Assembly: GCF_900105625.1 (NCBI RefSeq)
Contig: NZ_FNSD01000001.1
Span: forward strand, 3,472,001 to 3,536,000
Direction: 5' to 3'
Origin: Terriglobus roseus
Lineage (GTDB): Bacteria > Acidobacteriota > Terriglobia > Terriglobales > Acidobacteriaceae
Length of the DNA: 64,000 nucleotides
The translations under genes were made by a program, and so were the position numbers. Below, in pieces: positions 42,374 through 52,780 of this stretch (its first letter is position 1; every line of letters begins with the position of its first letter). Below the pieces are notes generated by a model. The model saw nothing but the letters and a program-made list of their open reading frames with translations. It was not told where the DNA came from and made no database searches.

Positions 42374-43075
42374 CTAGGCGTTCATGGCTCCGCTGTAGAC
42401 GGCCATGCCTGCGACGGCATCCACGCCCATCGCATCCAGGTCGTCGATCTCTTTCTGTTCCTTAATGCCGCCCGCAACGATCAACTGCTTCGCCGTGCAG
42501 GCACGCAGGATCGCCGCAACGTCAATGGGGAAGCCACTCATTGTGCCTTCGGTATCCACGTGCGTGTAGAGGAACGCGGCGCAGTCATTCTCAAGCCAGG
42601 TGACGGCTTCTTCCGGGGTCAGGTCGACCTGCTCTTTCCAGCCCTTCACGGCGACCTTGCCGCCCTTGGTATCGACGGAGAAGACAAGCTGCTCCTCTCC
42701 CAACGCCTTGTTCAGGGACGCGGCGAAGTCGAGATTCATGATGGGGTGACGCTTGCGATCAGCCGGGTTGTCGCCACCGAAGAGTGTCGAGCCGTAGATG
42801 ACGCGCTTCGCTCCCAGGTCCAGCATGGCCTTGCCATCGTCCGCCGTGCGCAGGCCGCCGCCCACCTGGCAAGTGAGCCTGCTGGTGAACTGCTGGATGA
42901 GCTTGCGGTTGTCGCCCTGCCGCATGGCGGCGTCCAGGTCGATCAGCTGCACTAGCGGGTACTTCTCAAACCGCGTGATCCAGTACTCAAAGTCGTCAAA
43001 GGCCAGCTTCAGCTTCTCGCCCTGCACCAGTTGAACGATCTGGCCGTTCATCAAATCAATCGATGGAATCAACAT
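42374..43075 (-). CDS. hisA: ProFAR isomerase (HisA), divergent
   Basis: 233 residues, (beta/alpha)8 barrel. Seen: MLIPSIDLMNGQIVQLVQGE with the catalytic Asp, QVGGGLRTADDGKAMLDLGA (phosphate binding), the second Asp in FSVDTKGGKVAVKGWK and VAGGIKEQKEIDDL. It isomerises ProFAR to PRFAR in histidine synthesis. The sequence is shorter and more divergent than proteobacterial HisA (STLFGGDNPADRKR in place of the usual helix). It is the last gene of the his operon, after a glucosidase gene. Confidence 0.88.
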   Translation of the reverse strand: MLIPSIDLMNGQIVQLVQGEKLKLAFDDFEYWITRFEKYPLVQLIDLDAAMRQGDNRKLIQQFTSRLTCQVGGGLRTADDGKAMLDLGAKRVIYGSTLFGGDNPADRKRHPIMNLDFAASLNKALGEEQLVFSVDTKGGKVAVKGWKEQVDLTPEEAVTWLENDCAAFLYTHVDTEGTMSGFPIDVAAILRACTAKQLIVAGGIKEQKEIDDLDAMGVDAVAGMAVYSGAMNA

Positions 43076-43154: not shown

Positions 43155-45860
43155 CTACTGCGCTCGATTGCGCACTTCACGCCGTGTGTAGAGGGCGTGG
43201 ATGAGCGTTGCGGCAAGGGCAGTCCAGCCCGTCTGGTGCGATGCGCCGACACCGCGGCCGGTGTCGCCATCGAAGTACTCGCTGAACAGCACAAGGTCCT
43301 TCCAGTAAGGATCGGTCGCATACCGATGTTCCCTGCCGTGGCTGGGCCGGTAGCCGTCCTTGTCCGGCAGGAAGAGGTTCACCATGCGGCGAGAGATGTC
43401 TTCGGAGATCTCGACCATTGTCTTCTGCTGGCCGCTGCCCGACGGATACTCCATTTTGAAGGACTCGCCATAGACCAGGTAATAACGTTCCAGCGCGGTG
43501 ATGAGCAGCATGTTCATGGGGAACCAGACGGGGCCACGCCAGTTGCTGTTGCCGCCGAACATGCCGCTGTCGCCCTCTGCCGGGACATACTTTACAGAGA
43601 ACTTCTGTCCGTTTAACTCGGTTTCAAACGGCGCCTCAAGATGCTGGCGCGAGAGACCGCGAATGCCGTGTGGCGACAGGAATTCCGACTCATCGAAGAC
43701 GCGGCGCAGAATACGTTCCATGCGTTCGCGTGGGGCGATGGCGATCCAGCGGGAGCCATCGATCTCGCGGCCGCCATCCCTCGACGTCGCCACATAATCC
43801 GAAAGCTCTGTCTTGTAGTCGAGAAACCAGTCAGACCGCTTTTTGAAGTCGTGCAGATCCTTCACGGTATCCCGCTTCAGAATGCAGACGGCGTAGAGCG
43901 GTGCGATGCCGACAATGGAGCGCGCCTTCAATGAGACTGGGGGACTACCCGCCTTTTCCAGACGATCAAAGTAGAAGCCCTCGTCCTCATCCCACAGGCC
44001 GTTCCCATCGACGGAGTTGATGGCGTCGATGATGGAGATGTAGTGCTCGAAAAACTTGCTCGCGATGTCCTCATAGGCGCAGGAGCGCTTCTGCGCGAGC
44101 TCCAGCGCCATGGTGAGCATGACGGAGCAGTAGAGGCCCATCCACGCTGTGCCGTCGGCCTGGTGCAGGCAGACATCGTCCGGCAACGCGACGGAACGGT
44201 CGAAGACGCCGATGTTATCCAGACCGAGAAATCCACCGCCGAAAAGGTTGCGACCCGCCTCGTCATTGCGGTTGACCCACCATGTGAAGTTCAGCATCAA
44301 CTTCTGAAAGGCACGCTCGAGAAACTCGATATCGCCGTTGCCCTTCTTGTCGACGCCCATGCGATAGATGTGCCACACGGACCACGCATGCACCGGCGGA
44401 TTGACGTCGCCAAACGCAAATTCATAGGCAGGCATCTGTCCGTTCGGGTGCATGTACCACTCGCGTAACAGCAGCAGGAGTTGGTTCTTCGCAAACTCCG
44501 GATCGATGTGCGCCATGGGGATCATGTGGAAGGCGGTGTCCCATGCGGCGAACCACGGATACTCCCACTTGTCCGGCATCGAGAGAATGTCGCGACAAAA
44601 CAGATGCCGCCACTCCTCAGACTTTTTGCTGCGCGGTGGCGGCGTCACCTGTGCCGGATCGCCACTCATCCATTGCTGTGCGATGAAGTAGTAGAACTGC
44701 TTGCACCACAGCAGGCCGGCATAGGCCTGGCGCGAGACGTTGCACTCTTCCGTTGTTGCTTCCTTCGGAATGTGTGCCGCGTAAAACTCGTCGGCTTCGG
44801 CAATGCGCTGTGCGAAGATCTCGGCTGCCGCGGCGGCTTCAATGCGGGGTGGCTGCGGCTTGTCTGCCGTGGGCAGGCGTACGAGGCGCAGATAGATGGT
44901 GCGGCTTTCTCCTGCGGGGATCGTGTCCTGAAACAGCAGCGCGCAGCGCGTGCCTTCATTCGCCTTTACCGCCTGCTTGTCGCCGTGGACAAGGTAGCGA
45001 TCGAAGCCATCCTTGCTGTAGTGCGCATCGCCGCTGTACGAGGGATCGAGCCGATTCAGGTTGCTGTCATTCTCGGTGAAGACCATCTCGCTTGCGGCAA
45101 GCGGACTGCCCGTGAGTGCGTAGAAGTTATAGGTGCCAAGGATCTTGTGGACGGCGCGTACGCCGTGATTGGAACGCCTGCGAATGATGGGCCGCGTCTT
45201 GCCCGTTGCCTCAAGGTTGCGCCAGGACCAGTTGTTGCGCAGCGTGAGTGTTGGCAGCAGGTGCAGCAGCGCCGCGTCGGGCCCGCGGTTGGACGCGGTG
45301 ATACGGATCAGCGTGTCTTCGTCGTCTGCCTTGGCATACTCGATGAGGACATCGAAGTAACGGCTCTCATCGAAGATGCCGGTGTCGAGTAGCTCATACT
45401 CCAGATCGTTGTAGCCGCGGCGCTTGTTCTCGGCTCGCAGATCGTCATACGGAAAGGCACGCTGCGGATACTTGTACAGCGCCTTGCAGTAGCTGTGCGT
45501 GGGCGTGGCGTCCAGGTAGTAGAACTGCTCCTTGACGTCTTCGCCGTGATTGCCCTCCTGGTTGCCGAGGCCGAAGAGGCGTTCCTTCAGGTGCGAGTCC
45601 TGGCCATTCCACAGCGCGGTGGAGAAGCACAGCCGGCACTGGCGGTCGGTCCAACCCAGCAGGCCATCCTCACCCCAGCGGTAGGCGCGGTACTGCCCCA
45701 TCTCATACGGGAAGCTGGTCCAGACGTTGCCGTCGGCGGAGTAGTCCTCGCGCACCGTGCCCCACTGCCGCTCGGGCAGGTAGGTGCCCCAGCGCTGCCA
45801 GTTCTTCTCGCGCGTGCGATTCTGTTCTAGCCGACGGTCTTCCGCAGTTGTGTGAGACAT
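43155..45860 (-). CDS. GH63/MGH1-type glucosidase within the his operon
   Basis: 901 residues. (alpha/alpha)6-type glycosidase. Seen: WGTYLPERQWGTVREDYSAD at the start, NGQDSHLKERLFGLGNQEGN, WAAWDTAFHMIPMAHIDPE-like segment (YPWFAAWDTAFHMIPMA) and GNSNWRGPVWFPMNMLLITAL near the end, with Asp and Glu candidates in AWDTAF and DEDEGFYF. It is cytoplasmic (no signal peptide) and may act on alpha-glucosyl oligosaccharides or glycogen-like material. It lies 27 bases after the hisF stop and 79 bases before hisA, on the same strand, although it has no link to histidine synthesis. A palindrome AGACAATTGTCT (45861-45872) sits just before its ATG. Confidence 0.88.
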   Translation of the reverse strand: MSHTTAEDRRLEQNRTREKNWQRWGTYLPERQWGTVREDYSADGNVWTSFPYEMGQYRAYRWGEDGLLGWTDRQCRLCFSTALWNGQDSHLKERLFGLGNQEGNHGEDVKEQFYYLDATPTHSYCKALYKYPQRAFPYDDLRAENKRRGYNDLEYELLDTGIFDESRYFDVLIEYAKADDEDTLIRITASNRGPDAALLHLLPTLTLRNNWSWRNLEATGKTRPIIRRRSNHGVRAVHKILGTYNFYALTGSPLAASEMVFTENDSNLNRLDPSYSGDAHYSKDGFDRYLVHGDKQAVKANEGTRCALLFQDTIPAGESRTIYLRLVRLPTADKPQPPRIEAAAAAEIFAQRIAEADEFYAAHIPKEATTEECNVSRQAYAGLLWCKQFYYFIAQQWMSGDPAQVTPPPRSKKSEEWRHLFCRDILSMPDKWEYPWFAAWDTAFHMIPMAHIDPEFAKNQLLLLLREWYMHPNGQMPAYEFAFGDVNPPVHAWSVWHIYRMGVDKKGNGDIEFLERAFQKLMLNFTWWVNRNDEAGRNLFGGGFLGLDNIGVFDRSVALPDDVCLHQADGTAWMGLYCSVMLTMALELAQKRSCAYEDIASKFFEHYISIIDAINSVDGNGLWDEDEGFYFDRLEKAGSPPVSLKARSIVGIAPLYAVCILKRDTVKDLHDFKKRSDWFLDYKTELSDYVATSRDGGREIDGSRWIAIAPRERMERILRRVFDESEFLSPHGIRGLSRQHLEAPFETELNGQKFSVKYVPAEGDSGMFGGNSNWRGPVWFPMNMLLITALERYYLVYGESFKMEYPSGSGQQKTMVEISEDISRRMVNLFLPDKDGYRPSHGREHRYATDPYWKDLVLFSEYFDGDTGRGVGASHQTGWTALAATLIHALYTRREVRNRAQ

Positions 45861-45887
45861 AGACAATTGTCTCAAGTGTCTGCTGTG

Positions 45888-46673
45888 CTACATACGGACG
45901 GGTATGCCACATTCCTGTAGTTGACGTTTCAGCGACCACGAGTCCGTAATGCCGAAGTGGAAGATGCTGGCTGCGAGCGCGGCGTCTGCCTTACCACCAT
46001 TGGGTCCGTGGCTGAAGACGTTCACGAAGTGTTGCGCGTTGCCGGCGCCACCGCTGGCGATGACGGGGATTTGAACGGCCTGCGAGACACGTGCGGTCAG
46101 CGCATCGTCGAAACCCGTGCGACGACCGTCGGAGTCCATGCTGGTCAGCAGGATCTCGCCCGCACCACGCTGCTCGGCTTCCATGGCCCAGTCGACGACC
46201 TTGAGGCCGGTGTTCTTGCGGCCACCACTGACGTAGACTTCGGCGTCGCCGATGGGATCGCTTGAGTCCGCGTTGCGCTTCGCGTCGATGGCGACGATGA
46301 CGGCCTGTGCGCCGAAGGAGGCGCCGATCTCGCCGATGAGTTCGGGTCGCGCGATGGCGGAGGAGTTGATGCTGACCTTGTCCGCGCCTGCGAGGAAGAC
46401 GCTCTCGGCGTCTTCTGCGGAGCGAATGCCGCCGCCGACGGTGAAGGGGATGAAGAGCTTCTCCGCGGTGCGCTTGACCGTTTCGAGGAGTGTGCCGCGT
46501 CCTTCGTGCGTGGCCGTGATGTCGAGCAGCACGATCTCGTCCGCACCGGCAGCGGCGTGGCGGTGTGCGAGCTCGGCCGGGTCACCGGCGTCGATGATGT
46601 CGACGAACTGGATGCCCTTGACGACGCGGCCTCCGCGTACGTCGAGGCAGGCGATGATTCGTTTAGTCAGCAT
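45888..46673 (-). CDS. hisF: Imidazole glycerol phosphate synthase, cyclase subunit
   Basis: 261 residues. Seen: the first catalytic Asp in [36 protein letters not shown], the second Asp in [13 protein letters not shown] and the phosphate loop [16 protein letters not shown]. It uses ammonia from HisH to close the imidazole ring of IGP and release AICAR. The gap to hisH (172 bp) is filled by palindromic repeats. Confidence 0.97.
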
Positions 46674-46845: not shown

Positions 46846-47454
46846 TTATAGCTCCACGAAGTTACGAAGTAACTGCAGTCCGGTATCGCCGGATTTTTCC
46901 GGGTGGAACTGCACGCCCATCACGTTATCGCGTTCTACGGCTGCGGTGAAGGCGCCGCCATAGCTGGTAGTGGCTGCCGTGTCGGCGTCCACGGGGGCTC
47001 GCCAGGAGTGGGTGTAATAGACGAACGCTCCGGGCGAGATGCCGCGCAGCAACTTCGAGTCTGGGCGGATGTCTTCGAGGGAGTTCCAGCCGACGTGCGG
47101 GCTCTTGAGTTCTTCGCCGTTGTAAATCGCAGGGAAGCGCTCGCACTGGCCGTTGAAGTTACACAGGCCGTCGGTGCTGTCCGCCTCGGTGGAGCCGTTG
47201 TAGAGCCACTGCAGGCCCACGCAGATGCCGAGGAAGGGAACGCCGCGTGCGATGGCCTCGCGCGTTGCTTCGGTCAGTTGCAGGTCATGCAGCAGTTGCG
47301 TGGCGCGGAAGTGGCCGACGCCGGGGAGGACGATCTTGTCGGCGTTGCGCACGTCGTCGGGCGACTGTGTGATGTGCGTTTCTGCACCGAGGAAGTTGAG
47401 CGCCTTGACGACGCTGGTGAGATTGCCCGCTTTGTAGTCGATGACCTGGATCAT
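46846..47454 (-). CDS. hisH: Imidazole glycerol phosphate synthase, glutamine amidotransferase subunit
   Basis: 202 residues from ATG 47454, which follows AGGTGAG; an in-frame GTG directly after the hisB stop (47463) is possible. Class I glutaminase: the nucleophile Cys in FLGICVGLQWL, oxyanion region LPGVGHFRATQ and His-Glu in GVQFHPEKSGDTG. It supplies ammonia to HisF through the complex. Confidence 0.96.
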   Translation of the reverse strand: MIQVIDYKAGNLTSVVKALNFLGAETHITQSPDDVRNADKIVLPGVGHFRATQLLHDLQLTEATREAIARGVPFLGICVGLQWLYNGSTEADSTDGLCNFNGQCERFPAIYNGEELKSPHVGWNSLEDIRPDSKLLRGISPGAFVYYTHSWRAPVDADTAATTSYGGAFTAAVERDNVMGVQFHPEKSGDTGLQLLRNFVEL

Positions 47455-47463
47455 GGCACTCAC

Positions 47464-48153
47464 CTACAGCAGCCCCTTGGTGCTCGGCAGCAGATCCTTC
47501 ATGCGTTCGTCGCGGCTTACGGCTCCTCGGAGGGCTCGGGCGAAGGCTTTGAAGATGGCTTCGATTTTGTGGTGGTTGCTGCGGCCGTACATGGTCTTGA
47601 CGTGGACGTTGCAGCGGCCGCCGCGGGCGAAGCCGTCGAAGAAGTCGGTGACGAGTTCGGTCTGGAAGTCGCCGACGAGTGGCACGTTGACCTGGTCGTC
47701 CACAACGTACCCGGTGCGCCCGCTGAGGTCGATGGCGGCGACGGCGAGTGTCTCGTCCATGGCCATGACGAAGTAGCCTGCGCGCAGGATGCCCTTCTTG
47801 TCGCCGAGCGCCTTGTCAAAGGCTTCGCCGAGTGCGATGCCCACGTCTTCGACGGTGTGGTGCTGGTCGACGTCAAGGTCGCCGTTGCAGACGAGGTCGA
47901 GATCGAAGCCGCCGTGGCGCGTGAAGAGTTCGAGCATGTGGTCGAAGAAGCGAATGCTGGTGCGGACGTTGTAGGTGCCCTGGCCGTCGAGGTTCAGCGT
48001 CAGCTTGATCTGGGTTTCGGTGGTGGCGCGATCGATGGTGCCGATGCGCGGCTCACGGCCATCTGCTGCGTGCGTCTGCGGCAGACCCGGGCCCGGCATC
48101 AGTTCGGCGTTCGGCATGAGGTGGATGTCGCTGGCGTTTTCGGGGTTACTCAT
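47464..48153 (-). CDS. hisB: Imidazoleglycerol-phosphate dehydratase
   Basis: 229 residues, monofunctional (no histidinol phosphatase domain). Seen: metal-binding motifs [20 protein letters not shown] and [20 protein letters not shown], with [20 protein letters not shown]. The core starts near residue 38 ([11 protein letters not shown]), so there is an N-terminal extension of about 38 residues whose ATG overlaps hisC by eight bases. The extension looks like a coupling artefact or a tail of unknown use. Confidence 0.95.
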
Positions 48154-49369
48154 ATTCGGGTGTCTCCTTAGGCTCGGTCTCTGGCTTGATGACTTCGGCG
48201 GGCTGCCAGTTCATGCTGCCCAGTGCGTCGCGTAGTGCCTGGATGCCCATGCTGACCTGGTCGGGCAGGCCGACGGTGAGGCGCACGCAGCCGTCGAGGC
48301 CGGGGTCGGCGGAACGGTCGCGGACGAGGATGTTGCGAGCGCGCATCTCGTTGACAAACTGCTTGTGGCGCGGGCCGATGTGCATCAGAACGAAGTTTGC
48401 GTGGGAAGGCCAGCGCGGGACCTTCATGTTGTCGAGAGCCTTCTCAATGCGCGCGCGACCTTCATGCATCTGCTGGACGTACCAGTCGATGTATTCCGTG
48501 TCGCCGATGCAGGCTTCGACCGCGGCGAGCGCTACGCCGTTGACGTTGTAGGGCGAGCTTGCCTTGCGCAGATGGTTCATTAGGTTAACTGGTCCGGCGA
48601 GCAGACCGACGCGCAGGTTCGCGAGGCCGTAGGCCTTAGAGAAGGTTCTTGCGACGAGGATGTTCTGTGGAACCCACACACCCGCTTCGCGTGTGTATGG
48701 GGCACCCGGTTCTGTTGCTTCCACTAAGTCGCCCATGACGGTGTCGCCGTGGAAGTGGAAGTAGGCTTCGTCGACGAGGATCACCGCGTGTGGCGCGGCC
48801 TTGGCGATGGTGTGGATCTGCTCACGCGTGATGACGGCGCCGGTGGGATTGTTGGGCGTGGTCAGGATGATGAGCTTGGTCTTCGGGGTGATGCTCGCGA
48901 GGATGCGCTCGTATGGGAAGGCGAGTGTGTCGTCGGCCTGCACGCGGACAAGCTTCGCACCCATGCCCATGGCGTTGACGTCGTACATGAAGAACGAGGG
49001 CACGGCGAAGAGACACTCGTCGCCCTCTTCGAGAAAGGTGAAACAGACGATGTGGATGGCTTCGTCGACGGCGTTGGTCAGCAGCACCTGCTCGGGCTTG
49101 AGGCCGAGGTGCTGTGCAACGACGGCTTCGACGGGCGCGCGCTCGGGATAGATGGTGAAGCCTTCGAGCGTGATCTTGCCGAGTGCTTCGCGCACCCGTG
49201 GCGAGGGTGCGTGGGTGTTCTCGTTGAAGTCCAGGCGCAGGCCGTTGCGACCCGCGAGCGGCGGGTGGTACTCCGGCATTGCGAGGATGGCGCGGCGCGG
49301 TTGGATGTCAACCCACGTCTCAGAAGCGAGACGTGGGGCACCCGGTTTAGTGGCTGTTTCGGTGCTCAT
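48146..49369 (-). CDS. hisC: Histidinol-phosphate aminotransferase with two translated palindromic insertions
   Basis: 407 residues, PLP-dependent fold type I. Seen: [71 protein letters not shown] and the PLP Lys in [18 protein letters not shown]. It converts imidazole acetol phosphate to histidinol phosphate. The start overlaps the hisD stop (ATGA, 49366-49369). Two palindromic repeats lie in frame: residues 8-20 ([13 protein letters not shown]) and about 219-233 ([14 protein letters not shown]). The second adds residues just before the strand leading to the PLP lysine, where the family normally has a short loop. The enzyme is otherwise complete and presumably works. Confidence 0.95.
48671..48711 (-). 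repeat. Palindromic repeat, type A, inside hisC coding sequence
   Basis: On the minus strand it reads ACCGGGTGCCCCATACACAC followed by GCGAAGC and GTGTGTGGGTT. It keeps the ends of the type A element (ACCGGGTGCCCCA and TGGGTT) with a different stem. Translated in the hisC frame as EPGAP...GVWV. Confidence 0.85.
49310..49347 (-). repeat. Palindromic repeat, type A, inside hisC coding sequence
   Basis: On the minus strand it is ACCGGGTGCCCCACGTCTC, then GCTTCT, then GAGACGTGGGTT. It differs from the intergenic copies at 4015 and 4745 by only one or a few bases. Translated in the hisC frame as [13 protein letters not shown]. Confidence 0.9.
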
Positions 49370-50631
49370 CGCTTGCCTGCTTTCATGCGGACGCGCACGC
49401 TCTGCGCGTGGGCCGTAAGGCCTTCAGCTTCGGCGAGTGCGATGGCGTGTGGGCCAAGCTTGGCGAGGCCTGCGGCCGTGTAGTTCTGCACGGTGATGAC
49501 CTTCAGGAAGTCATTGATGCTGAGGCCGCCGCGCATGCGTCCGACGCGGCCGGTGGGCAGCACGTGGTTGGGTCCGCTGATGTAGTCGCCCATGCTCTGT
49601 GGCGAGTAGTTGCCGATGAAGACCGAGCCCGCGTTCTTCACCCATGCGAGGTCTTCGACGCTGTCGACGGTGAGGTGCTCGGGTGCGAGGCGGTTGGTGA
49701 TGAAGCGTGCCTCTTCGACCGAGCCGCAGAGGAAGATGGTGCCGCGCGCCTTGATGGAGACCTGCGCCAGCTTGTTGTTCTTCACCTGCTCCTTCACTTC
49801 GGTCGCAACCTGCTTCGCGAGCTGCGAGTCGGCAGTGATAAGGACGGCAAGCGTTTCGGGATCGTGCTCGGCCTGTGCGACGAGGTCGGCCGCGATACCG
49901 GCTGCATCGCCGACCTGGCTGGTGACGACGATCTCCGTCGGTCCTGCGGGCATGTCGATGCCGCATTCGGTGCTTGCGATGATCTTTGCTGCCGTGACGT
50001 AGAGATTGCCGGGGCCGACGATCTTGTCGACGCGCGCGATCGTCTCGGTGCCGTAAGCCATGGCGGCGATCGCCTGTGCGCCGCCGGTGCGGTACATCTC
50101 GGTCACACCTGCGAGGTGCGCCGCGGCGAGCGTCTCACGCGCGGGCTTTGGGCTGCAGACGACGATGCGCTCCACGCCCGCGACCTTTGCGGGGATGGTG
50201 GTCATCAGCAGCGTGGAGGGCAGGGGATAGCGACCGCCGGGAACGTAGCAACCGACGGATTCCAGTGGGCGGATGATCTGTCCTACGGTGACGCCGGGCG
50301 TGTTCTCGGTGGTCCACTCGTCGGGCTTCTGCTGCTCGGCGAAGCTGCGGATGTTCTCCGCGGCGATCTGCATGGCCTGTTGCAGCGGTTCGGGTGTGGC
50401 GTTCCATGCGTCGAGCATCTCGCCGGCGGTGACGCGGAGGTGGCCCTGCAGGGAGTCGAACTTCTCTGCGAACTTCAGCAGCGCCTTGTCGCCCTTCTTC
50501 TGGATTTCCAGCATGATCTTGCGGACGGTTGGTTCAACCTCCGCCGTCTTCACGGCGCCGCGGCGTTCGAGCGTTGCGAGAAGTGCGTAGGCGTCTTTCG
50601 CGTTGCGGCCTGTGGTCTTGATGAGCTTCAT
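49366..50631 (-). CDS. hisD: Histidinol dehydrogenase
   Basis: 421 residues from ATG 50631, which has GGAG upstream; a start ten codons earlier is less likely. Seen: PLESVGCYVPGGRYPLPSTL, GPGNLYVTAAKIIASTECGI, DMPAGPTEIVVTSQVGDAAG and the zinc/catalytic His region LAPEHLTVDS with SGPNHVLPTG. It carries out the last two steps, histidinol to histidine, with two NAD. It couples to hisC through an ATGA overlap. Confidence 0.97.
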   Translation of the reverse strand: MKLIKTTGRNAKDAYALLATLERRGAVKTAEVEPTVRKIMLEIQKKGDKALLKFAEKFDSLQGHLRVTAGEMLDAWNATPEPLQQAMQIAAENIRSFAEQQKPDEWTTENTPGVTVGQIIRPLESVGCYVPGGRYPLPSTLLMTTIPAKVAGVERIVVCSPKPARETLAAAHLAGVTEMYRTGGAQAIAAMAYGTETIARVDKIVGPGNLYVTAAKIIASTECGIDMPAGPTEIVVTSQVGDAAGIAADLVAQAEHDPETLAVLITADSQLAKQVATEVKEQVKNNKLAQVSIKARGTIFLCGSVEEARFITNRLAPEHLTVDSVEDLAWVKNAGSVFIGNYSPQSMGDYISGPNHVLPTGRVGRMRGGLSINDFLKVITVQNYTAAGLAKLGPHAIALAEAEGLTAHAQSVRVRMKAGKR

Positions 50632-50667
50632 GGTGTGCTCCTGGTGCCTGTTCGCCGGCACTTTGGC

Positions 50668-50778: not shown

Positions 50779-51654
50779 TTACAGAACGACCTTGCTCAGC
50801 GGGTACTCGACGATACCGCTGCCGCCTGCTGCCTTCAGCTTCGGGATCACTTCGCGGACGACGGTTTCGTCGAGGATGGTGTTCACTGCAACCCAGTTCT
50901 CATCCTTCAAATGCGAGACGGTGGGCGACGACAGTGCGGGCAGGAGCGAGAGGATCTCGTCGAGGTTGCTCTTGGGTACGTTCAGCATCAGGCCGACCTG
51001 CGAGAGCGCATTGATGGCGCCGTTGAGCATGAGGGCGAGGTTGTCGATCTTCTGCTTCTTGAACGGGTCGGTGTAGGCGGACTTGTTCGCGATGAGCTGT
51101 GTCTCGCTCTCCATCAACAGGTCGATGATGCGCAGGCGGTTCGCGCGCAGGGAGCTGCCGGTTTCGGTGACTTCGACGATGGCGTCGCAGAGCATGGGCG
51201 GCTTGACTTCGGTGGCGCCCCAGCTGAATTCAACCTTGACGTTGATGTTCTTTTCCTTGAAGTAGCGCTTGGTGTACTCGACCAGCTCGGTCGCGATGAC
51301 CTTGCCTTCCAGGTCTTCCGGCCTTTGAAAGGGCGAGTCTTCCGGCACGCAGAGAACCCACTTCACCTTCTGGCGCGACTGCTTGGAGTAGGTGAGCGAG
51401 GTGATGCGGTCAACGTCCGAGAGGTTCTCGAGGACCCAATCGTTGCCGGTGAGGCCGGCGTCGAGTGCGCCGCTCTCCACGTAGCGTGCCATCTCCTGCG
51501 CGCGGACGAGCATGCATTCGATTTCGGGGTCGTTGATGGCGGGGAAGTAGCTGCGGCCGCTGGGGCTGATCTGCCATCCGGCGCGTTTGAACAGGTCAAT
51601 GGTCGCGTCCTGGAGCGAGCCCTTGGGGATGCCGAGTTTCAGTGTGTTGCTCAC
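50779..51654 (-). CDS. hisG: ATP phosphoribosyltransferase, long form
   Basis: 291 residues from a GTG start at 51654 preceded by GGAGAAC. Seen: [20 protein letters not shown] at the start, [40 protein letters not shown] and the C-terminal ACT-like regulatory domain (ending [15 protein letters not shown]). The length marks the long HisG, which is feedback-inhibited by histidine and needs no HisZ. It catalyses the first step of the pathway. The frame remains open upstream through the repeats, but that stretch is not protein-like. Confidence 0.96.
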
Positions 51655-51681
51655 GTTCGTTCTCCGTCTGGATCGTTGTTG

Positions 51682-51753
51682 GTCGCGCTCTGCGCGATGG
51701 AGCGGCTTTGCCGCTGGCCCCACCCTCTGCTTCGCAAAGAATGGGGCGCCCGG
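51682..51753 (-). repeat. Composite palindromic element, modules A-B, between hisI and hisG
   Basis: On the minus strand: CCGGGCGCCCCATTCTTTGC, GAAGCAGAGGGTGGGGCC (module A), AGCGGCAAAGCCGCT (extra palindrome), then TCGCGCAGAGCGCGA (module B). Module C is missing. The A and B parts match the copies at 4821 and 46724. Confidence 0.8.
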
Positions 51754-51761
51754 TCTGGTGG

Positions 51762-52097
51762 CTACTTCGCGGTCTCGATCGGCTTGGTGAAGCAGCTTAC
51801 GGTGCCTTCGTGGCAGACCAGGCCGTCGCCTTCGACTTCTACTTTGAAGAGGAGGGCGTCGTTGTCGCAATCGGTGCTGGCGCTGATGATGCGCAGGCGG
51901 TTGCCGCTGGTCTCGCCCTTCATCCACAGCTTGCTGCGGGTGCGCGACCAGAAGGTGACGAAGCCGCTTTCCAGCGTGCGACGGTAGCTCTCTTCGTTGA
52001 GGAAGCCAAGCATCAGCATCTCACCGGTCTTTGCGTCCTGCACGATGCCGGGGACGAGGCCGTCTGCCTTGGCGAAGTCAATCGTTACGTCGTTCAT
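51762..52097 (-). CDS. hisI: Phosphoribosyl-AMP cyclohydrolase
   Basis: 111 residues from ATG 52097, preceded by AAGAGGA. Metal-binding signature of the family: [16 protein letters not shown] followed by [11 protein letters not shown], and [18 protein letters not shown] with [19 protein letters not shown]. It opens the purine ring of PR-AMP in the third step. It is monofunctional, without a HisE domain; hisE is not in the window. It is the first enzyme gene of the operon, 113 bases after the leader peptide. Confidence 0.96.
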
Positions 52098-52148
52098 CAA
52101 ATCCTCTTGGGTTATGCCGATTTCGATGGGAGCTGGCGGACATAACAA

Positions 52149-52179
52149 AGCCCGCCGGTGAGCATCGCTCGGGCGGGCT
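52149..52179 (-). terminator. Attenuator terminator of the his operon
   Basis: On the minus strand AGCCCGCC pairs with GGCGGGCT, enclosing an inner GAGC/GCTC stem, followed by TTGTT. It lies 30 bases after the leader peptide stop and 52 bases before hisI, the expected place for a transcription attenuator. Candidate alternative pairing: GATGGCGGCGG (52240-52230) can pair with GCCCGCC of the terminator 5' arm, and GCCATC within the His-codon stretch can pair with GATGGC. These foldings were done by eye. Confidence 0.82.
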
Positions 52180-52209
52180 GGTATCGATCCTGTGTGCGTT
52201 GACGCCTTA

Positions 52210-52290
52210 CTACGACTTCGCACCGGACACCGCCGCCATCGCGCTATGCGCGTGGTGAAGATGGCCATGATGGTGGGTGCGAACGTTCAT
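52210..52290 (-). CDS. hisL: His operon leader peptide (26 residues, seven His)
   Basis: A 26-codon frame starting at ATG 52290 and ending with TAG. Residues 6-15 read [10 protein letters not shown], seven His in ten. It is immediately upstream of the his operon on the same strand and followed by an intrinsic terminator. This is the layout of his leader peptides: when charged tRNA-His is scarce the ribosome stalls on the His codons and blocks terminator formation. The sequence outside the His run (start MNVRT, end AAVSGAKS) does not resemble the enterobacterial one as I recall it. No strong ribosome site precedes the ATG; the nearby promoter suggests a nearly leaderless start. Confidence 0.88.
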
Positions 52291-52300
52291 TGCATCTTTG

Positions 52301-52329
52301 AGGCTAATGGTGCGGGCAGCGCGTGTCAA
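52301..52329 (-). promoter_or_regulatory. Candidate sigma-70 promoter of the his operon
   Basis: On the minus strand: a perfect -35 TTGACA (52329-52324), a 17-base spacer, and a weak -10 TAGCCT (52306-52301). Transcription would begin about 52294, only four to six bases before the hisL ATG. Confidence 0.55.
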
Positions 52330-52450
52330 CGGCGGCATGCAGAAAGAAAGTTGTGGGGCGAGCGGGAAACCTTTTAGCCGGGCGGCTTCTCCCACGTATG
52401 GTTCGGATGTATCGCCGGTGCAGCACCGGCGAAGTGTACGCAAGGAGATC

Positions 52451-52780
52451 ATGACCATGAAGATGTTTCGATTCCTCCCCGTTCTAGCGCTGGCCATCGC
52501 CGGGCCGTTGTTGACGGCACAAACGCCCGCAAAGCCCGCAGCCAAGCCGGTGACCTCTGCTGCTGCGGCAAATCCGCGCAAGAACGATCCGCTGGACATC
52601 AACACCGCGTCGCCGGACCAGTTGATGCAGTTACCGGGTGTGGGCGAGGCATACTCGAAGCGGATCATCGATGGTCGCCCGTATACCGCGAAGAATCAGC
52701 TTGTGACGCGTGGCATTGTGCCCAAGGCGACGTATGACGGGATCTCGGCGCAGATCATTGCGAAGCGTGTATCGAAGTAG
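52451..52780 (+). CDS. Exported helix-hairpin-helix protein (ComEA-like)
   Basis: 109 residues from ATG 52451; the ATG two codons later has better spacing to AAGGAG. A signal peptide ([20 protein letters not shown]) and an Ala/Pro/Lys linker are followed by one ComEA-type HhH domain: [50 protein letters not shown]. ComEA binds double-stranded DNA in the periplasm during uptake; single-HhH secreted proteins may also serve other roles. It is divergent from the his operon and shares its upstream region. Confidence 0.88.

Follow-up and report, generated by a model that had tools for sequence, protein, structure and literature searches.

The attenuators of proteobacteria were reportedly surveyed by Vitreschak and co-workers in 2004. 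The enterobacterial histidine attenuator (Rfam RF00514, His_leader) combines a leader open reading frame (ORF) containing His codons with alternative antiterminator and terminator structures, and its target is a his operon. In gammaproteobacteria the element lies upstream of hisG, according to the account in PMC4833913, and the Salmonella leader is described as adding a hairpin between the pause hairpin and the terminator (PMC1183508). Firmicutes attenuators of hisZ, hisS, and other his genes also have a His-rich leader with a terminator and an antiterminator; as far as the descriptions in PMC9413887 and PMC2965389 extend, they occur in few lineages and carry three to five consecutive His codons. 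Biosynthetic-gene attenuation is also represented by trpL (rnTrpL) of Sinorhizobium meliloti, whose trp RNA is described as starting at the leader ATG (PMC7298713).

A comparable element is found in the acidobacterium Terriglobus roseus, within a window of 64,000 nucleotides (the whole stretch of DNA that was analyzed, in whose coordinates all positions are given). Judged from sequence and comparison, it is very probably an attenuator of the classical type, in which a ribosome controls transcription of the histidine operon, built from four segments. It resembles the enterobacterial his attenuator in its leader, its alternative structures, and its target, but the operon here begins with hisI, the Salmonella leader has the additional hairpin, and the leader here usually lacks a Shine-Dalgarno sequence. 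The likeness to S. meliloti trpL rests on layout: the amino acid there is Trp and the phylum is another, whereas here it is His, and the transcription start at the leader is predicted. Compared with the Firmicutes attenuators as described, leaders here have a median of 7 His (in 73 non-redundant leaders), and the element reaches across a whole order and to further families in the phylum rather than over few lineages. What sets it apart among attenuators is the probable leaderless start together with its own four-segment design. The Rfam His_leader model gives no match even at E 10, which fits either an independently derived or a strongly diverged attenuator. The Rfam T-box riboswitch model likewise gives no match up to E 10; the only Rfam matches up to that value, CRISPR-DR28 and adapt33_4, are both far below their cut-offs and were rejected. 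No earlier description of an acidobacterial his leader was found in the open-access literature, including the accessible text of PMC4833913, PMC2965389, PMC9413887, and PMC2864571, and a prior description is possible. The element and its operon comprise the following features.

52324-52329, minus strand: -35 element TTGACA of the predicted leader promoter (TTGAC[AT] in 110/110 loci L001-L110)
52301-52306, minus strand: -10 element TAGCCT, separated from the -35 element by a 17-nt spacer and ending 10 nt before the leader ATG
52210-52290, minus strand: his leader peptide ORF of 26 codons, with homologous leaders in relatives
52246-52275, minus strand: putative regulatory run with His at 7 of 10 codons (4 CAT, 3 CAC), from sequence and translation
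52260-52283, minus strand: segment 1, partner of segment 2 (inverted repeat, leader fold, swap control)
52217-52243, minus strand: segment 2, encoding the leader C-terminus (inverted repeat, folding, pair counts, swap control)
52163-52179, minus strand: segment 3, comprising the terminator 5' arm with some of the loop and pairing with segment 2 in the antiterminator (folding, pair counts, swap control)
52149-52179, minus strand: 3:4 hairpin, an intrinsic terminator whose T-tract is interrupted (folding, pair counts, shuffle control)
51762-52097, minus strand: hisI, which opens the operon (scores above the cut-off of NCBIfam NF000768)
50779-51927 as the listed open frame, minus strand: hisG (Pfam HisG and HisG_C)
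49366-50661, minus strand: hisD (the PF00815 match of the T. roseus genome falls here)
46846-49369, minus strand: hisC, hisB, and hisH (assigned by eye on the basis of the translation)
45888-46673, minus strand: hisF (Pfam PF00977; hisF and hisA told apart by eye)

The operon thus reads, on the minus strand, hisI, hisG, hisD, hisC, hisB, hisH, hisF. The HisG profile match starts at residue 142 of the listed hisG frame, whose listed start is GTG, so the true start probably lies downstream. A sequence-only reading of this DNA had placed a 26-codon leader with seven His in ten residues at 52290-52210 (minus strand) and the start of hisI at 52097, in an acidobacterium-like genome. The leader coordinates and translation agree, hisI does start at 52097, and the hisI amino acids are 100% identical to those of Terriglobus roseus DSM 18391, whose leader differs from this one at two residues. 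The hisI frame stays open upstream to an ATG at 52268 within the leader (51762-52268, minus strand, 168 aa); gene-calling programs could therefore place the hisI start at that ATG and obscure the attenuator.

The sequence-only reading had made its case depend on His-rich frames upstream of hisI in relatives. Of 170 loci, counting the window, 169 carry such a leader at the corresponding position (110/110 loci L001-L110 and 59/60 further family loci); the set is enriched for close relatives because it was sampled through hisI similarity and family membership. The one locus lacking it, L133, covers 115 bases at the edge of a contig. Loci L031-L110 are the best 80 of 416 hisI relatives, and the others were found via hisI in the family, where 111 genomes have hisI (30 of them supplied L001-L030 and 60 supplied L111-L170). 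Among the 30 loci L001-L030, five duplicate named loci, and the 169 leader-terminator stretches include 164 distinct sequences. Alignment A1, used below, contains 73 of the 169 sequences, which are less than 80% identical.

The terminator hairpin, AGCCCGCC...GGCGGGCU, lies at 52179-52149, exactly where it had been read by eye; it begins 30 nt past the leader stop codon, has 8 perfect outer pairs, and folds with -20.9 kcal/mol. The T-tract in the window is interrupted and weak (TTTGTTAT). A terminator-like hairpin is present in 169/169 loci (median -23.2, range -33.9 to -15.5 kcal/mol), with the T-rich tail a condition of the search, since the finder requires at least 4 T. Hairpins of -15.5 kcal/mol or better were found in all 73 non-redundant loci versus 19 of 1460 shuffled stretches; the same finder returned some hairpin with at least 4 T in 593 of the 1460 shuffles, rarely a strong one. 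In A1 the terminator helix is 90.0% paired, with two-sided changes at 6 of 10 pairs. Consensus folding of A1 yields the terminator alone, as expected of mutually exclusive helices.

An inverted repeat of 24 nt (71% complementary) joins 52260-52283 with 52217-52240. It contains GCCATC (52265-52260) and GATGGC (52240-52235), which had been proposed to pair as regions 1 and 2 and turn out to be part of this longer repeat. Region 2 had also been proposed to pair with the 5' arm of the terminator. It does so in the folds, although not through GATGGC itself: the 2:3 fold of the window uses GGCGG (52237-52233) with CCGCC (52176-52172), in addition to GGU/ACC, GUCC/GGAU, and an inner hairpin. The leader fold of the window, at -36.8 kcal/mol, is not extreme relative to shuffles (z -1.2). 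Across A1, the antiterminator core pairs GUGUCGGCGG with CCCGC[CU]GACGCG; 89.3% of cells are paired and 7 of 11 pairs show two-sided changes, a pairing level reached by 0/500 shuffles and by slid registers only to 54.5% at most, with the register picked on the same alignment in which the pairs were counted. The 2:3 helix thus carries compensatory changes, and a favorable antiterminator, which the sequence-only reading had treated as decisive, is present. Because antiterminator and terminator share segment 3, the two are mutually exclusive.

Swap tests, which like the shuffles leave shared ancestry in place, distinguish the three helices of the classical scheme (1:2, 2:3, 3:4) from the other combinations. 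By duplex energy on A1, matched segments paired better than segments swapped between species for 1:2 (-16.53 versus -15.57; 5/5000), 2:3 (-20.99 versus -18.45; 0/5000), and 3:4 (-21.76 versus -18.48; 0/5000); no significant difference was found for 1:3, 1:4, or 2:4 (3057, 644, and 515 of 5000, respectively). The scheme read by eye is therefore backed by folding, pair counts, and swap controls, and least so for 1:2, the weakest of the three helices, whose native pairing beats the row mean in 42/73 loci. Support for 1:2 comes from folds and the swap control; that for 2:3 and 3:4 includes pair changes counted column by column. The antiterminator was found in the folds of 108 of the 110 loci L001-L110, the exceptions being L024 and L026 under a first, looser terminator finder. 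In L024 that finder settled on the wrong hairpin (-2.2 kcal/mol); a stricter one gave the 169/169 terminators reported above.

Folding with a stalled ribosome produced the antiterminator in 72/73 loci (L030 failed the antiterminator criterion), and folding with a released ribosome produced the terminator in 73/73. The window forms 8 of 11 core antiterminator pairs. When it was folded codon by codon, with 12 nt assumed to be covered past the A-site codon, the 2:3 pairing persisted while the A site lay in codons 1-14 and disappeared once it reached codons 15-16, where the His run ends. A ribosome at codons 22-24 leaves 4 of 8 segment-3 bases paired upstream in other ways, and one at the stop codon leaves none. 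The region folds without a ribosome as 1:2 plus terminator. At equilibrium the terminator is still favored in the full stalled RNA, by 1.5-25.8 kcal/mol (10.3 in the window), so the switch to readthrough must be kinetic. Kinetic readthrough is the usual assumption for such attenuators.

The proposed attenuator would work as follows. RNA polymerase would start a few bases upstream of the leader AUG, and a ribosome would load at or near the 5' end without a Shine-Dalgarno sequence. When histidine is plentiful, the translating ribosome would clear the His codons and cover segment 2, leaving the 3:4 terminator to form and transcription to stop before hisI. When charged tRNA-His is scarce, the ribosome would stall in the His run, covering segment 1; segment 2 would then take segment 3, the terminator would be blocked, and the operon from hisI to hisF would be transcribed. 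If no ribosome loads, 1:2 and 3:4 would both form and transcription would stop.

Codon use in the leaders departs from that of the genes downstream. Leaders have 5-9 His codons (median 7 among the 73 non-redundant ones). The CAT (CAU) share of His codons is 219/363 in leaders versus 181/558 in predicted downstream ORFs, and the leader has the higher share at 42 of the 48 loci compared (Wilcoxon p = 6.6e-8), which were selected from 80 because their predicted downstream ORFs contain 8 or more His codons. The sensitivity of attenuation has been argued, in the modeling presented in PMC1183508, to hang on the choice among synonymous regulatory codons. The CAU bias could equally be caused by RNA pairing as by regulatory tuning. 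The His codons alternate between CAT and CAC across leaders, while 65/73 use GCG for the Ala encoded in segment 2; six his-operon ORFs of the window contain 184 Ala codons, of which GCG makes up 24%. The leader C-termini are conserved (SVLAAVSG, NVSAE, SVPAD), probably through RNA pairing, given the segment-2 antiterminator helix and the GCG preference.

The promoter-like sequence lies close to the leader. In 105 of the 110 loci L001-L110, 6-13 nt separate the end of the -10 element from the start codon. A strict arrangement (TTGAC, a spacer of 16-18 nt, a -10 element whose second base is A and whose sixth is T, and 5-13 nt to the start) is present in 157/169 loci and 64/73 non-redundant loci versus 56/33,800 shuffled upstream sequences, with leader start codons chosen by a script that prefers the ATG nearest the His run. 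Shine-Dalgarno-like tetramers precede the leader in 4/110 loci L001-L110 and 4/73 non-redundant loci. With the -10 element just before the start codon, the 5' untranslated region (UTR) is probably a few bases at most, and the leader RNA is, on this positional evidence, probably leaderless or near-leaderless. Leaderless genes were predicted in all 3 acidobacterial genomes of a 2011 study, at a mean of 13.3% of genes by the figures given there (PMC3160421). An alternative concerns the start only and is compatible with attenuation: the attenuator would be real, but its RNA would carry a conventional, longer 5' UTR made from another promoter. The leaderless start is a prediction from promoter position, the -10 elements are weak, TTGAC was seen by eye upstream of 5/14 loci in other families, and a general consensus scan of 51900-52700 gave 0 promoters and 0 terminators, a null that we attribute to the weak -10 element and T-tract. 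Set against the strict promoter counts and the rarity of Shine-Dalgarno-like tetramers, the longer UTR seems unlikely.

Two further alternatives deny transcription attenuation itself. The leader might act on hisI translation, masking the gene's ribosome site while transcription continues. The hisI ATG lies within about 10 nt after the attenuator T-tract in L239 and L242 (by eye), two relatives from outside the class Terriglobia, but in the window 51 nt separate the end of the hairpin from hisI and the AGAGGA site is outside the hairpin, and every one of the 169 loci has a hairpin with a T-rich tail (the tail being imposed by the search); translational control is very improbable. The notion that the His-rich ORF encodes a functional small protein (e.g., a metal-binding one) that precedes hisI by chance could appeal to the strong conservation of His, but it is scarcely credible. 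In the loci covered the leader always precedes hisI, once hisZ, although 169 of them were found through hisI; its C-terminal codons are conserved as an antiterminator segment; and nearly all family genomes without the element also lack hisD, as detailed below. A chance or low-complexity ORF is ruled out by the conservation of the leader in 169/170 loci.

Three aspects of the histidine attenuator go beyond the sequence-only reading: the near-leaderless promoter, the leader codon bias, and the wide spread. A covariance model built from A1 finds one site in the T. roseus genome (E 6e-18) and no second attenuator there, the next match having an E value of 0.02. A precise function can be assigned, and when run on 150 genomes of the order the model locates the element in 125. 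It also matches 34 of 247 phylum genomes (25 of the 34 in the element's own family), a count of model matches that implies no absence elsewhere, as 96 of 159 phylum genomes bear PF01502, often in longer frames. Fourteen loci lie outside the family, 9 from the phylum matches and 5 in the order's second family, which includes at least 4 other genomes without a match. Thirteen of the 14 precede a hisI-like ORF (by eye; three coincide with PF01502 matches), and in L243 the element precedes a gene whose first 130 residues best match HisZ. A start codon was not found at the expected place in L242. The antiterminator appears in the folds of 14/14, where the leader pairs with 7 or more segment-3 bases.

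Within the family, the element tracks the histidine pathway. Sixteen genomes without a model match were listed and all were searched for histidinol dehydrogenase (five further ones are unlisted); the enzyme is absent in 15 of the 16, and in the other, G116, 113 bases separate the beginning of its gene from the edge of a contig. The 15 genomes without the enzyme are 95-100% complete (G010, G025, G049, G091, G023, G143, G004, G115, G060, G139, G093, G045, G200, G215, and G221). This pattern suggests that histidine synthesis was lost in several genera of the family, and the element appears to be retained as long as the pathway is retained. A broader picture can be offered tentatively, with somewhat less belief than doubt: an ancestral attenuator of Acidobacteriota, gained and lost with its operon and serving as its main histidine control, in which ribosomes would enter at the leaderless 5' end as the RNA emerges, coupling transcription to 70S/leaderless initiation and to charged tRNA-His, with CAU as the tuned stalling codon. 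Leader-peptide attenuation is extended by this element to another phylum. If the start sites are confirmed, these loci would form a large natural set of leaderless attenuators, which would serve for asking how ribosome loading at the 5' end keeps up with RNA polymerase.

Several neighboring features of the locus may be recorded. No match to PRA-PH (hisE, PF01503) was found in the whole T. roseus genome, while 14/14 control genomes were positive; the genome has hisI, hisG, hisD, and two PF00977 genes, and another pyrophosphatase may substitute for hisE. The run of his genes is interrupted by a 906-aa ORF for an MGH1-like, GH63-related glycoside hydrolase (43155-45875, minus strand), which is flanked by hisF (45888-46673) and by the second PF00977 gene, taken for hisA (42374-43075). 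Upstream of the leader, a divergent ORF (52277-52780, plus strand) encodes a helix-hairpin-helix protein of ComEA-like type (Pfam HHH_3).
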